Below are positions 3,081-19,239 of a DNA stretch of 39,860 nucleotides, one piece after another. The translations under genes and the position numbers were made by a program. A model generated the notes under the pieces. The model was not told the DNA's origin. It ran no database searches and saw only the letters and a list, made by a program, of their open reading frames with translations. This DNA is from a virus, in the IMG/VR virus record IMGVR_UViG_3300009146_000024, positions 1 through 39,860 of that record, one strand, 5' to 3'. Numbering within the stretch: the first letter of the stretch is position 1; the number at the start of each line of letters is the position of its first letter.

Positions 3081-3385
3081 ACCAGCTTGCTAAGTACGGC
3101 CATGTGGCTGTGCTAACCGAGTGTTCTGGATTCCTCCTGGATTCTGCGGGGGGAGTCTGGAACTGGGACGTGTTCGGCGACAACGTCACCGTGAGTCGTA
3201 ACGGGTGGCGGTCGCGGACGGTGCTTGTGGGCAACGTCTCCGAGTACATGTTCCGCTGGTTGTTCGACAACGAAACAACACGGCCCTCCCTGGAGTTCCC
3301 GATCACGTTGGAAGATGCGATCGAGATCTTCGGGGTGGCCGCAGTTCACGACGCGTTCAAACGTTTCAGACTAATAGACGCGTAA
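3044..3385 (+). CDS. Hypothetical protein
   Basis: 113 aa, overlapping the previous gene by 37 nt. The pattern is strand-rich with conserved-looking aromatic residues (GGVWNWDVFGDNV, SEYMFRWLFDNE) and a helical end (VAAVHDAFKRF). No family recognised. Confidence 0.7.
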   Translation: MVSLNPKAKSVVDQLAKYGHVAVLTECSGFLLDSAGGVWNWDVFGDNVTVSRNGWRSRTVLVGNVSEYMFRWLFDNETTRPSLEFPITLEDAIEIFGVAAVHDAFKRFRLIDA

Positions 3386-4300: not shown

Positions 4301-4349
4301 GCGGGGGCCGTTGATGGCGATCCTATGGAAGACCGTTAATGGCCCCCGC
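4301..4349 (+). terminator. GC-rich inverted repeat after the 4000-4293 gene
   Basis: GCGGGGGCC at 4301-4309 pairs perfectly with GGCCCCCGC at 4341-4349 (9 bp) around a 31-nt loop, seven bases after a stop codon. No T-run follows, so it is not a classical intrinsic terminator. It could be a processing or attenuation structure. A TATTATAGG just downstream (about 4380) could be a -10 element, but no good -35 is spaced correctly. Confidence 0.35.
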
Positions 4350-5113: not shown

Positions 5114-6037
5114 ATGGGGGACGAGTTCTGGTTGGACTCCTCGAAGATCGAGGCGTTCCACCTGTGTCCACAGAAGTACGCCTACCGCTACGAGGAGCAT
5201 CTGGTTCCCGTAGACCGCAAGCGCGACTCGCCGATTATGTTTGGCGGGGCGCTCCATCGGTGCCTCGAGTCCTTGTATAAGGGGACAGCATTCGATAAAG
5301 TAGACTGCCCCTTGCATGAACCACAGAGCGGATGCTTTAGGTGCAAAGGGGTTCAGATTTCTCGCATAGCAGCGTTGCTGTTGGCGAACTACACCGACGA
5401 TCCCGAAGATCCCAAGGAGATCAGAACGGTTGATCGCGGTCTCGAGATACTCGCAGGCTACATAAGCAAGTGGGGCCGCGAACCGTTCAAGGTACTGGAA
5501 GTGGAGAAGCCGTTTGAACTCCACATGCAGTCGTACCACACGTTTGACGTGTTCGACTTCCTGTACATTGGACGCATCGACCTGATCGTCGACTACGAGG
5601 GCGTCCCGATGACGGTGGATCACAAATCTACCACCCGCTTTGGCATGGTGTTCGACGCGGGCTTCAAGCTCAGCGGTCAGTTCACCGGCTACATGAAGGG
5701 CGGTAGCACCCTGATCGGGAAGGAAATCACGGGGGCAATGAGCAACGCGATTCGCGTCACGACCAAGATCAGTGACGAGTCGTTCGCGCGGATCTTCACA
5801 CACCGGACTCCCGAGGAGTTCGACACGTGGCAGCGTGAAGTTCAGTACGTCGCGCGTACCATCATCGAGATGCGCGAGACGAAGCACTGGCCTAGAAGCG
5901 CACCGTTTGCATGTGGGGCGTACAACAGGATTTGCGAGTACTACCCCCTCTGCATCGCGGCCGCGCAGACACGTGAGACGTTGAAGCAGTCGGCCTATGA
6001 GGTTCTCGTGTGGGAACCAAGGAGAGCGGAGGAATGA
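5114..6037 (+). CDS. PD-(D/E)XK nuclease, Cas4/RecB-like, probable Fe-S cluster
   Basis: 307 aa. The N-terminal SKIEAFHLCPQKYAYRY is the typical opening of RecB/Cas4-family nucleases (first cysteine near residue 17). GGALHRCLE supplies the motif histidine, GRIDLIVDYEG the first acidic residue, and TVDHKSTTRFG the D-x-K part of the active site. Near the C-terminus ACGAYNRICEYYPLC gives three more cysteines (C-x6-C-x5-C). With the first cysteine these match the four ligands of the Cas4/AddB iron-sulphur cluster. It probably processes DNA ends in recombination-dependent replication with the ATPase at 6253. GGGAGG precedes the ATG. Confidence 0.9.
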   Translation: MGDEFWLDSSKIEAFHLCPQKYAYRYEEHLVPVDRKRDSPIMFGGALHRCLESLYKGTAFDKVDCPLHEPQSGCFRCKGVQISRIAALLLANYTDDPEDPKEIRTVDRGLEILAGYISKWGREPFKVLEVEKPFELHMQSYHTFDVFDFLYIGRIDLIVDYEGVPMTVDHKSTTRFGMVFDAGFKLSGQFTGYMKGGSTLIGKEITGAMSNAIRVTTKISDESFARIFTHRTPEEFDTWQREVQYVARTIIEMRETKHWPRSAPFACGAYNRICEYYPLCIAAAQTRETLKQSAYEVLVWEPRRAEE

Positions 6038-6144: not shown

Positions 6145-6260
6145 GTACTAAGAAGTGCGAGCCCTGCGACGGCACCGGAGCAAGCGAGTGCTCGGAGTGC
6201 GGCACCGAGAAGGAATGCGACGAGTGCAACGGGACAGGAGAGGTGGTAGACGATGAGTGA
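6141..6260 (+). CDS. Second mini DnaJ-type zinc-finger protein
   Basis: 39 aa, overlapping both neighbours by a few nucleotides. Visible repeats are CEPCDGTG, CSECGTEKE and CDECNGTGE, that is two full CxxCxGxG repeats around a degenerate one, ending in an acidic tail. Together with the preceding gene it forms a tandem pair sandwiched between nuclease and ATPase genes, all translationally coupled. Confidence 0.75.
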   Translation: MSTKKCEPCDGTGASECSECGTEKECDECNGTGEVVDDE

Positions 6261-7029
6261 GCTTGAAAACATCCGCCACGTCGTCGATGCCCCACGGCAA
6301 GGAAGGTCGTTCTTGTTTTACGGCCCTCCGGGTTCGGGCAAGACGACGCTCGCGGCGATGCACCCAGCCAAGCGCAAGCTCTGGCTCGATGCAGATGGCA
6401 AGATCCACGAGATGGATCGCTTGCCAAACCCAGGGGCCATAAGTGTGTGGACCCCGGGCGAGCCCCTCGGGAATCCCGACAAGATCGAGATCCTTTGGAA
6501 CCCCGATCCCAAGAACCCACAGTCCGGGACCATTCCCGCGAAGAAGCCGTTGGGCTACGAGAAGATCGTTGCTGTTACAAACGATTTGCTCAAGTCCGCT
6601 CGGAGCCCCGAGGGGCTGGACTACGACTGTGTGGTTCTCGATACCCTCACGGCGGTCGGCGACCACTGGACCAGGTTGCTGATGTACACCCACAAGGTCT
6701 CGTTCATGACCGAACGCCTTTGGGGTATCTACCTCGCGGGTATGATGGAGTACCTTAACGGGTTCCTCACGCTCCCGTGTGACAGGATCGTCCTGTGCCA
6801 CGAGAAGCGTAGGACCGACGAGGACACCAAGGTCGAGACCATACGACCCAGCGTCGCCGGGCAGCTCGGTGATAACTTGATCCGGTTCTTCACCGAAGCA
6901 TACTGGCTCAAGGGCCGTGAGCGCAGCGGAAGCTACAAGCTCCAGACGGTCACGGGCAACGGGGCGGCAGCTCGCACGAGCCATGGCCTCGACCCCGAGT
7001 GCGTCGCGGGACCGGAGTTGTTTCTATGA
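6253..7029 (+). CDS. P-loop ATPase, Sak4/RecA-like recombination protein
   Basis: 258 aa. Walker A is FYGPPGSGKTTLA at about residues 23-35, and a Walker B-like strand is YDCVVLDTLTAVGD near residue 124. The size and layout match the phage Sak4-type RecA-core ATPases that promote single-strand annealing or exchange, although a generic phage AAA protein remains possible. Neighbours support recombination: Cas4-like nuclease upstream, SSB-like protein downstream. Its start overlaps the zinc-finger gene and its stop overlaps a 20-aa membrane peptide gene. Confidence 0.85.
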   Translation: MSELENIRHVVDAPRQGRSFLFYGPPGSGKTTLAAMHPAKRKLWLDADGKIHEMDRLPNPGAISVWTPGEPLGNPDKIEILWNPDPKNPQSGTIPAKKPLGYEKIVAVTNDLLKSARSPEGLDYDCVVLDTLTAVGDHWTRLLMYTHKVSFMTERLWGIYLAGMMEYLNGFLTLPCDRIVLCHEKRRTDEDTKVETIRPSVAGQLGDNLIRFFTEAYWLKGRERSGSYKLQTVTGNGAAARTSHGLDPECVAGPELFL

Positions 7030-7088
7030 GAACTGCAATCGTCATCGTGTGCGTCGTCATCTTTCTGGCGTGGGTGCTCTCCCCATAG
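7026..7088 (+). CDS. 20-residue membrane peptide
   Basis: ATG at 7026 overlaps the ATPase stop (ATGA) and TAG ends at 7088. The peptide MRTAIVIVCVVIFLAWVLSP is a single hydrophobic helix with one N-terminal arginine, as in tiny phage membrane peptides. Its last base is also the first base of the long stem at 7088-7149. Coding is supported by the coupled start and the clean membrane profile only. Confidence 0.5.
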   Translation: MRTAIVIVCVVIFLAWVLSP

Positions 7089-7149
7089 TTGCCTGGGGTC
7101 AGGGGGTAAAACCCAAGGACCATCCCTCCTTTGACTGACCCCGGGCAAC
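7088..7149 (+). ncRNA. Long stem with internal hairpins (structured mRNA element 1)
   Basis: GTTGCCTGGGGTCAG (7088-7102) pairs with CTGACCCCGGGCAAC (7135-7149) over 15 positions with a single G-U wobble. The 32-nt interior can form GGG-TAAAA-CCC and a weaker AAGG/CCTT hairpin, giving a branched shape. The TTG start proposed for the next gene lies at the 3' side of the interior (7131), so folding could control its translation. Part of the sequence (CCTGGGGTCAGGG) recurs in reverse orientation in the element at 7789-7856. Confidence 0.5.
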
Positions 7150-7355
7150 ATAGACTGTACCAGGTAGATCATCCGTTCTACTGCGCGGGCTTCGAGGTTG
7201 ACAGCCGCGGCACCGTCGTCCGATGCGCCCCGGTTTTGTTCAAGCGAATCTGGGGGCAGAAGCTAGACGTGGCCCTTAAGCGTCTCGAGAAGGTGCATGC
7301 TCGCGTGGTGCTCGTTTCCACGGCCGGTACGCCGGCCTTAACCGGGAGGCGGTAG
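7131..7355 (+). CDS. Small phage protein, unknown function
   Basis: 74 aa if TTG at 7131 is the start, with AAGGA 11 nt upstream. The core YQVDHPFYCAGFEVD, then TVVRCAPVLFKRIWGQKLD, follows a pattern common in short phage proteins: aromatic-Cys-Ala-Gly, a strand pair, then APIL and a basic helix. No better start codon is visible downstream; CTG at 7155 would remove the part overlapping the stem. The stop lies 18 nt before the next ATG, with AAGGAGG between. Confidence 0.65.
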   Translation: MTDPGQHRLYQVDHPFYCAGFEVDSRGTVVRCAPVLFKRIWGQKLDVALKRLEKVHARVVLVSTAGTPALTGRR

Positions 7356-7373
7356 CTTCCCAAGGAGGGCGAG

Positions 7374-7781
7374 ATGCCCGATCTAGAGGATCAGACGGAC
7401 TTCATCAACATCAACCTGGACTCCGTGGATGACGGGAGCGATCCCATTCCCGCGGGCCTCCAGCTGTGCCGCGTGAAGTCGGCGCAGAAGAAGCACAAGC
7501 AGGGGAGTGAGTTCCCGTACATCGACGTACGGCTCAACCCCCTCGAGGCTGGTGAGAAGTTCGACAACCGGCAGCTCTTTCTGACCCTGAGCTTCCACCC
7601 GAACGCGCAGTGGAACATGAAGCGGTTCATGAAGGCATTTCAGGTGCCGTTCGACGAGCGCGGCTTCCACGTGGAGGACTTCGCCGGCAAGGAAGGGTAC
7701 GTAACGGTGAAGCACACGCCGGACCAGAACGATCCGAGCGCCATCCGGGCGGAGGTGAATCCTCCGTACGCGAAGGCGTAA
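7374..7781 (+). CDS. DUF669-like putative single-strand DNA-binding protein
   Basis: 135 aa. Acidic N-terminus (MPDLEDQTDFINI), then an OB-fold-like alternation of strands (AGLQLCRVKSAQKKHKQGSEF, YIDVRLNPLEAG, NRQLFLTLSFHP) and a helix NMKRFMKAFQVPFD. The length, the P-x-G-x2-L opening and the position after a Sak4-like ATPase match DUF669-type proteins, which are regarded as SSB-like partners. The usual acidic C-terminal tip of bacterial SSB is absent. Confidence 0.65.
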   Translation: MPDLEDQTDFININLDSVDDGSDPIPAGLQLCRVKSAQKKHKQGSEFPYIDVRLNPLEAGEKFDNRQLFLTLSFHPNAQWNMKRFMKAFQVPFDERGFHVEDFAGKEGYVTVKHTPDQNDPSAIRAEVNPPYAKA

Positions 7782-7788
7782 TCTAGCA

Positions 7789-7856
7789 GGATGCTCGGCG
7801 GCTCGGGACTAAGACCCTGACCCCCTAGGTCCCTCCCCCCGGGTCGTCGGGCATCC
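7789..7856 (+). ncRNA. Long stem with C-rich loop (structured element 2)
   Basis: GGATGCTCGGCGGCTC (7789-7804) pairs with GGGTCGTCGGGCATCC (7841-7856) over 16 positions including four G-U wobbles, which favours an RNA rather than a DNA role. Inside, GGGACT (7805-7810) pairs with GGTCCC (7828-7833). C-runs follow. It fills the 90-nt gap between two genes and ends 15 nt before the ATG at 7872, leaving the GGAGG site free. It shares CCCTGACCCC-type sequence with element 1. Confidence 0.5.
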
Positions 7857-7871
7857 ACTTGGAGGCGGAAT

Positions 7872-8111
7872 ATGAACAAGAAGCTCAATGAGAAGATCGA
7901 CTCGATCCTCGACGTGCTGGGCGCCGTAGTCGACGGGCTGGAGGCGCTCAGGGCCGGCATCGAGGCGGAGGACGACGAGCAGATCGGCAACGGGCTGGAC
8001 ATGTTCCCGACGCCGAAGGTGCTCGAGCGCGCGTTGCAGAAGCTCGGTGGGATCATCACGGCAACTGACACCTACATGGAGAAGCAGAAGGAGAAGAAGA
8101 ATGCCGGATGA
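7872..8111 (+). CDS. Small helical protein
   Basis: 79 aa, strongly helical with heptad-like spacing (NKKLNEKIDSILDVLGAVVDGLEALRAGIEAE) and a lysine-rich tail (MEKQKEKKNAG). A coiled-coil oligomer is likely. TTGGAGGCGG precedes the ATG. It overlaps the methyltransferase start by 11 nt. Function unknown. Confidence 0.7.
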   Translation: MNKKLNEKIDSILDVLGAVVDGLEALRAGIEAEDDEQIGNGLDMFPTPKVLERALQKLGGIITATDTYMEKQKEKKNAG

Positions 8112-18672: not shown

Positions 18673-19239
18673 TTAGTCGAAGAAAGTCCACAGGATCAAT
18701 CGACCATCCTCTGGACCTGAGCCATGCCCATAGACGGGAAGCGCTGCGTGGAGCAATTCGCTCCTGATGACGATCATCCTATTCGGTGCGCAATCAACCT
18801 TCGCACGGATCTCCCACGCATCCACGTTGCTCTGGTCCCGCTGGAGAACCGCCAGTTCATATTCGTCTTTCGGGTGCGCGAACATTCCGGTCTCTTTGTG
18901 GCGCAGTAGAACGGTGCCCCCAGGGGAGGGGTTAATGTAGAGGAAAGACGCGAAGCGAGAGACAGATAGATCACTGTGTGCCCACTGCGGGGGCACCGTT
19001 CCAGTTATCGACAACCGAAAAGCGCAGATCTTGATGATTACTCGAGAACCCACCAGCCACGACAGTAGGTGCGTCAGTTGCTCCTTAACGCACTCGGGCA
19101 CCTCTGCCGACACGCCCTGGTAGATTACTCCGTCAGGACCCTTGCGATCCTCATACGGTACCAATCGACTGTACTCTCGCAGTATCTCGAACTCGCCCTG
19201 CGGGAGCGCGTCGTCGATGGCATAGAAGTACGGGATCAT
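18673..19239 (-). CDS. 2-oxoglutarate/Fe(II)-dependent oxygenase
   Basis: 188 aa. WAHSDLSVSRFASFLYINP supplies the H-x-D iron ligands near residues 86-88. RSELLHAALPVYGHG gives the distal histidine near residue 164, and EDGRLILWTFF the arginine that would bind 2-oxoglutarate. The double-stranded beta-helix strands between them fit. Proteins of this type are often found among phage tail genes; the substrate (protein or DNA) is unknown. It overlaps the GNAT gene by 4 nt, so it belongs to one modification cassette. Confidence 0.8.
   Translation of the reverse strand: MIPYFYAIDDALPQGEFEILREYSRLVPYEDRKGPDGVIYQGVSAEVPECVKEQLTHLLSWLVGSRVIIKICAFRLSITGTVPPQWAHSDLSVSRFASFLYINPSPGGTVLLRHKETGMFAHPKDEYELAVLQRDQSNVDAWEIRAKVDCAPNRMIVIRSELLHAALPVYGHGSGPEDGRLILWTFFD

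Follow-up and report, generated by a model that had tools for sequence, protein, structure and literature searches.

A long predicted RNA stem over the start of a small gene in an uncultured phage, and two covarying RNA elements beside the neighboring SSB-like gene

Introduction

The early transcript of phage T7 carries RNase III processing hairpins between its genes. RNA structure is also found at the starts of translationally coupled genes, and a 2025 review (PMC12548453) names E. coli rpmI-rplT, a pair with +52 nt spacing and an inhibitory structure, the coat and lysis genes of MS2, coupled at -50 nt, and genes VII and IX of phage f1, coupled at -4 nt with a long hairpin. In one screen described there, coupling showed a negative correlation with structure that immediately follows the upstream stop codon. 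T4 has a leader pseudoknot before gene 32, its SSB gene, and an operator hairpin at gene 43 (PMC3014915, PMC535899). Among the phage RNA motifs named in PMC2864571 are manA, wcaG and c4.

Here we describe a predicted structure, element X, in the early operon of an uncultured phage. X resembles the three coupled pairs of MS2, f1 and rpmI-rplT, as these are presented in PMC12548453, in that the region of the downstream start is folded, the upstream stop codon lies at the foot of the structure and the spacing is short. In contrast to the MS2 and f1 pairs, which overlap, the TAG of the upstream gene and the TTG of the downstream gene at X are separated by a positive spacing of 42 nt, and X is a structure predicted from sequence. 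It is hence an instance of a structured start region, a kind already known, whereas two further elements of the same operon, B and C, are absent from Rfam 15.

Results

The window, i.e., the whole stretch of DNA analyzed, is the 39,860-base IMG/VR virus record IMGVR_UViG_3300009146_000024. X lies between a 20-aa hydrophobic ORF and a 74-aa ORF (Table 1). The ATG of the 20-aa ORF overlaps the TGA of the Sak4-like gene, and the last base of its TAG, G7088, is the first base of X. The 74-aa ORF had no match in Pfam or PHROG searches. As an observation apart, 19-mers at 34-52 and 7758-7776 of the window are 89% identical, and the window may start with the end of a second gene related to the SSB-like gene.

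Table 1. Genes and predicted RNA features around element X (window coordinates).
Feature	Position	Strand	Remarks
PD-(D/E)XK exonuclease-like gene	5114-6037	+	
Sak4-like gene	6253-7029	+	
20-aa hydrophobic ORF (MRTAIVIVCVVIFLAWVLSP)	7026-7088	+	from sequence
CATAG direct repeat, left copy	7084-7088	+	
X, whole element	7088-7149	+	predicted fold
X, long stem P1, 5' arm	7088-7102	+	pairs with 7135-7149
X, inner hairpin GGG/CCC	7103-7105/7112-7114	+	3 bp, loop GUAAAA; in MFE and centroid folds
X, inner hairpin AAGGA/UCCUU	7115-7119/7127-7131	+	5 bp, loop CCAUCCC
74-aa ORF	7131-7355	+	after X
X, long stem P1, 3' arm	7135-7149	+	within codons 2-7 of the 74-aa ORF
CATAG direct repeat, right copy	7149-7153	+	
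Element C	7322-7361	+	predicted hairpins 7322-7327/7332-7337 and 7344-7350/7355-7361 (GGUA loop), joined by UUAACC
SSB-like gene	7374-7781	+	PHROG 378, E 5.5e-6; Pfam DUF669 under its cut-off
Element B	7789-7856	+	19-pair stem 7789-7807/7838-7856; after SSB-like gene
Element B, inner part	7821-7825; 7831-7836	+	CCCCC in C-rich loop of short hairpin; then CCCUCC
79-aa ORF	7872-8111	+	
ParB/methyltransferase fusion gene	next after 79-aa ORF	+	

The long stem of X, P1, has 14 Watson-Crick pairs and one G-U pair and encloses two small hairpins of 3 and 5 bp. The first-pass annotation had reported a 15-position stem with one wobble and two inner hairpins, beginning at the last base of the 20-aa gene, and on both points our analysis agrees. 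It had also placed the TTG start of the 74-aa gene on the 3' side of the stem. X does enclose TTG 7131-7133, but the codon falls outside the 3' arm of P1: the 5-bp inner hairpin ends with U7131, and the other two bases of the codon lie in the junction that immediately precedes the arm.

That such a pairing is unlikely by chance, as also stated in the first-pass annotation, is borne out by the folding energies. X alone has a minimum free energy of -37.2 kcal/mol compared with a shuffle mean of -21.8 (z -5.2; 0 of 200 shuffles as low). It is the only stem across the 39,860 bases with at least 15 contiguous pairs, at most one G-U pair and a loop of at most 60 nt, and any stem of this kind arose in one of 60 dinucleotide-preserving shuffles of the window. 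Longer stems occur at 7789-7856 (19 pairs, four G-U), 4301-4349 (17 pairs, three G-U) and 3123-3163 (17 pairs, five G-U), and several other 80-nt windows have folds of lower energy. In 162 nt of context the fold of X is kept, with a weaker z of -2.69 (4 of 200 shuffles as low). This context value, the one shuffled window with an equally good stem and the lack of conservation among 16 relatives (see below) would fit a functionless, GC-rich intergenic stretch that folds well by chance or drift. We consider this unlikely, however, given the z of X itself, the match of its ends to gene boundaries and the enclosed Shine-Dalgarno (SD)-like run and start codon.

At the curated threshold, no Rfam family matched in the window, X included, or in eight loci of relatives. 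With E values up to 5, the region 6900-8000 gave ALIL only, on the minus strand at 6960-7009 (E 0.43) and outside X, and X was rejected as a known Rfam family. Judged from the sequence, an intrinsic terminator was also rejected, because no U run follows X on its 3' side (ATAGACTG).

We then considered the start of the 74-aa ORF. TTG 7131-7133 is the sole ATG, GTG or TTG between an upstream in-frame TAA (7107-7109) and codon 9, where conservation of the protein begins, and is therefore the only usual start. The homologue in the relative L019 has a TTG in the matching alignment column. By eye, the best SD-like run before this codon is AAGGA, which ends 11 nt upstream of it. In the folded leader (7030-7230), the unpaired probability was 0.00 for G7117 and G7118 and 0.33 for U7131. 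As in coupled starts, the SD-like run and the start codon thus sit in a stable predicted structure that depends on the sequence at the upstream stop codon.

Our main reading, to which we assign a probability of roughly 0.4, is that X is a stable plus-strand RNA structure of the early operon, lineage-specific in the available data, that controls translation of the 74-aa ORF. Because the SD-like run and the start are enclosed and X fits the upstream stop codon, translational control is the likeliest role, and most simply we favor structure-mediated coupling to the 20-aa ORF. P1 would bring together the hairpin in which AAGGA pairs with UCCUU, running into the TTG, and a free ribosome would find the start site closed. 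A ribosome ending the 20-aa peptide would cover the 5' arm of X and block the long stem, and output of the 74-aa protein would thereby be tied to upstream translation. Three steps of this best explanation are inferred: ribosomes start at the TTG, the structure holds translation down, and the upstream ribosome lifts this repression. When 7073-7100 was forced single-stranded in silico to mimic a ribosome on the stop codon, AAGGA was still paired in the small hairpin. Full relief is therefore not shown by the model, which is the main weakness of the coupling mechanism, and X would differ from the described coupled pairs in that its small SD-holding hairpin is predicted to survive cover by the upstream ribosome.

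Scans with the SSB-like protein, the Sak4-like protein and an SSB profile yielded 16 distinct IMG/VR relatives (L004-L014, L016, L019, L020, L022 and L025). No match was obtained for the SSB-like and Sak4-like proteins in INPHARED (tblastn) or for the SSB-like profile in genome_contigs, hence among the collections searched the clade is found only in IMG/VR. From the Sak4-like gene to the SSB leader, these phages carry differing cargo, or almost none. Homologues of the 74-aa ORF, with 42-45% identity, are present in three relatives (L005, L008 and L019), and a profile scan found none beyond these.

Within the 300 nt upstream of the SSB leader, none of the 16 relatives has a stem of more than 9 Watson-Crick pairs (best stems, 5-9), compared with 14 in the window. 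This stretch was uniform for all 16, following an earlier pass on eight, in which the slot starts of L016 and L020 were approximate. A stem comparable to X was found there in none of the 16, including all three relatives found with a 74-aa homologue. The first-pass annotation had named homologues lacking the stem as the observation that would speak against its proposal, and this is what the relatives show. X was therefore rejected as a conserved RNA, and a conserved regulatory RNA at this site is not supported: with X missing in all 16 relatives, there are no compensatory changes to count and there is no sign of long-term selection. In the available data X is confined to this phage lineage, and a lineage-specific structure affecting translation is plausible.

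We also searched for X elsewhere. BLAST with the region 7020-7230 gave no match in the records of the 16 relatives and short, weak matches within the window at 787-812 (E 0.007) and 18901-18914 (E 0.09). The inner sequence of X had one match in IMG/VR (L030), where by eye no such stem is present and the surroundings differ; we took it as chance. An exact pattern of the X arms had no match in genome_contigs (84,980 species), and INPHARED phages and plasmids gave chance-level matches only (E 2 to 8).

The occurrence of the stem in one genome and its absence from all relatives would also be expected from a mobile element. X could be a MITE-like palindromic insertion of 60 bp with 14-bp terminal inverted repeats (one mismatch as DNA) and CATAG duplicated on entry; its translational effect would then be a side effect, though the insertion would have supplied both AAGGA and the TTG. 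The CATAG copies flank 7089-7148 exactly, i.e., a terminal inverted repeat is combined with an apparent target-site duplication. By the same rule, 1267 of 200000 random 62-nt intervals (about 0.6%) have a flank repeat of at least 5, and such repeats flank none of the 16 tested copies of element B. However, the flank repeat was spotted only post hoc, and this strand of the window carries CATAG 14 times. Moreover, a second copy was found neither in genome_contigs or plasmids nor in INPHARED phages or IMG/VR. Removal of the element, by eye, leaves the 74-aa frame without ATG, GTG or TTG, so that a clean pre-insertion gene is not apparent. We hence regard an insertion as rather improbable.

The 19-pair stem downstream of the SSB-like gene belongs to element B. 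In the window, B begins 8 nt past a stop codon and sits upstream of the next SD. Across the clade it consists of a stem of 13-20 pairs, an inner hairpin with a C-rich loop and a CCCUCC-like run, the inner hairpin having 6-10 pairs in 11 of 14 relatives folded. We built two covariance models. R1 comprises eight slot copies (L006, L007, L008, L009, L011, L013, L019 and L022) and is free of window sequence; L005 was left out because MAFFT misplaced its 3' arm, and L004, L010, L014, L016 and L020 are likewise not included. R2 comprises 13 matches below E 0.002, among them B of the window; L004, L010, L014 and L016 were not supplied.

Slots after the SSB-like gene were examined in the window and 15 relatives, L012 ending before the slot, and 14 of these 16 gave a plus-strand match with R1, the weakest in L004 (19.6 bits, E 0.27). 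The slot of L016 holds a stem without the C loop (17.9 bits with R2), and that of L025 holds element F instead, with the B copy of L025 in another gap. Two relatives have B copies in other gaps (G008:1663-1723 and G016:6330-6412).

Covariation supports B as an RNA structure. In eight relatives, both partners have changed in 17 of 24 pairs, and 94.3% of cells pair. Five measures were compared with 500 shuffles, and no shuffle matched any of them; in slid versions, pairing fell to 31-46%. On 13 copies, 19 of 24 pairs changed on both sides and 93.2% of cells pair; since the R2 alignment had been fitted with R1, these counts lean towards the structure. There are 38 G-U cells compared with 4 A-C cells, so that plus-strand RNA is the form kept, and B on the minus strand was rejected. 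Judged by eye, B as coding sequence was also rejected, as joining lengths vary out of frame. A degenerate B pattern found 51 stretches in IMG/VR. Of the 50 scored with R2, i.e., all but the known carrier L013, those above 24.3 bits were without exception known clade records; the pattern recovers just six known clade carriers and is therefore of limited reach. B had no match in Rfam 15, in the window or in eight loci of relatives.

X might be a diverged copy of B, i.e., of a clade-specific intergenic hairpin that occupies more than one early-operon place, and might share the action of B on the mRNA. It could, e.g., bind a protein or serve between genes as a hairpin for processing or stability, and would then not act on the start of the 74-aa ORF in particular. 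B is indeed not bound to one slot. Both elements have a long stem at or just past a stop codon: X, which starts on one, has 15 pairs from there, within the 13-20 of B. Both have a C-rich inner region with UCCCUCC, at 7123-7129 and partly paired in X, yet this motif is not enriched in the window (8 found compared with 8.8 expected). With models that contain no X, X ranks second in the whole window after the genuine B. Its score is 21.4 bits under R1 (E 0.028) and 23.1 bits under R2 (E 0.009), a marginal likeness. The R1 score is within the range of the weakest slot copies (L004 19.6, L014 22.9 and L010 25.6 bits). However, the minus strand of X scores nearly as high (17.0 bits with R1 and 20.8 bits with R2), hence most of the score reflects a generic GC-rich stem. 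Moreover, in a 492-kb set chosen beforehand for a B-like pattern, R2 scores non-clade matches at up to 24.3 bits, and R1 gives 18.5 bits elsewhere in a clade record (L039:14678-14743). A whole-record search with default filters did not list X, which appears only with filters off.

Sequence comparison gave a similarly divided result. The summed local-alignment score of X to 17 sequences, i.e., 15 B-slot sequences, including that of L016, and the two copies in other gaps, had p 0.01 against 1000 structure-keeping shuffles, but the best single pairwise score had p 0.41. The letters of P1 fit the B profile not beyond a generic helix, with 2116 of 20000 permutations (10.6%) as good; the two other-gap B copies did no better in this test (p 0.09 and 0.72). 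X encloses a start codon, whereas B of the window does not reach the next SD, and X is without the inner CCCC-loop hairpin; in X, both models leave out this helix except for its outermost pair. For lack of this hairpin we did not file X under B, and we consider it unlikely that X is a B copy.

Element C sits immediately before the SD of the SSB-like gene and overlaps the end of the 74-aa ORF, whose stop codon (7353-7355) falls in the second hairpin of C in the window. C was found in all 17 records, 16 of 16 by script and L025 by eye, with GRUA as second loop. On 16 rows, L025 being judged by eye, 10 of 13 pairs changed on both sides and 96.6% of cells pair. The covariation score was 0.645 compared with 0.150 in shuffles; of 500 shuffles, one reached the count of pairs changed on both sides and none reached the other four measures. 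G-U and A-C cells (4 and 1) are too few to say much about the strand. C had no match in Rfam 15, in the window or in eight loci of relatives. A C pattern, which recovers only 3 of 16 relatives, found four IMG/VR stretches, three of them clade records; the fourth, in L096, lies inside a terminase-looking gene, was taken as chance and was rejected as C outside the clade.

Further structured or conserved stretches were observed in these phages. Element D, at 4301-4349 of the window, is a long stem that spans the start codon of a gene whose product begins (M)ILWKT.NGPRP. L003, L005, L008 and L011 fold into a similar stem; L002, L006 and L010 fold differently. With a hairpin over the start of another clade gene, the anatomy of X is not foreign to these phages.

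Element F (L010:3515, L006:3276, L002:2102, L022:2787 and L025:5458) combines a variable stem that ends in GGG/CCC with a loop of some 18 nt that hardly varies (URAAGC..GGGGAUAAUU); in four of the five, AGCGCC lies a few bases upstream. F was not found in the window, and an Rfam scan of four of its loci (L002, L006, L010 and L025) gave no match. X was rejected as a form of F, because it departs from F at invariant letters, even though by eye 10 of 17 positions in the loop are identical.

A short conserved stretch near CGCGTCATTACGACAAAATG lies between the Sak4-like gene and C, ahead of differing cargo genes. It was located by script at L006:5795, L014:5866 and L020:3036 and by eye in L007 and L008; in L008 it precedes the 74-aa homologue, and in L007 it lies in the corresponding gap. 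Perhaps this stretch is a promoter or operator.

Discussion

B, and loosely X, resemble the T7 RNase III hairpins as long intergenic hairpins soon past stop codons with an asymmetric internal loop. In contrast to these, B keeps a CCCC loop and CCCUCC-like letters, which are not obviously needed for cleavage. C resembles the T4 gene 32 leader in that a conserved RNA structure immediately precedes the SD of a phage SSB gene (PMC3014915, PMC535899). The T4 leader is described as a pseudoknot (PMC3014915), whereas C is predicted to form two simple hairpins with a GRUA loop. B and C also differ from the motifs manA, wcaG and c4 named in PMC2864571. A limited open-access literature search (conserved phage RNA structures, Sak4/DUF669 phages), judged by title and start of abstract, gave no description of B or C among the matches listed.

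X, B and perhaps C might form one phage-encoded RNA control layer. Structured cassettes would then have moved between early-operon gaps and placed small genes under one factor, e.g., the SSB-like protein, with X as a recent, diverged copy that also captured a start codon. We regard this as a long shot.

Taken alone, X is of modest value, as a clean example of a structured start region in an uncultured phage. The follow-up of X, however, brought to light two RNA elements with covariation, B and C, on either side of a phage SSB-like gene, neither of which matches an Rfam family. B and C are candidates for autogenous control like that of T4 gene 32. Operons of uncultured phages may hold many such cis elements, which are missed by protein-based annotation.
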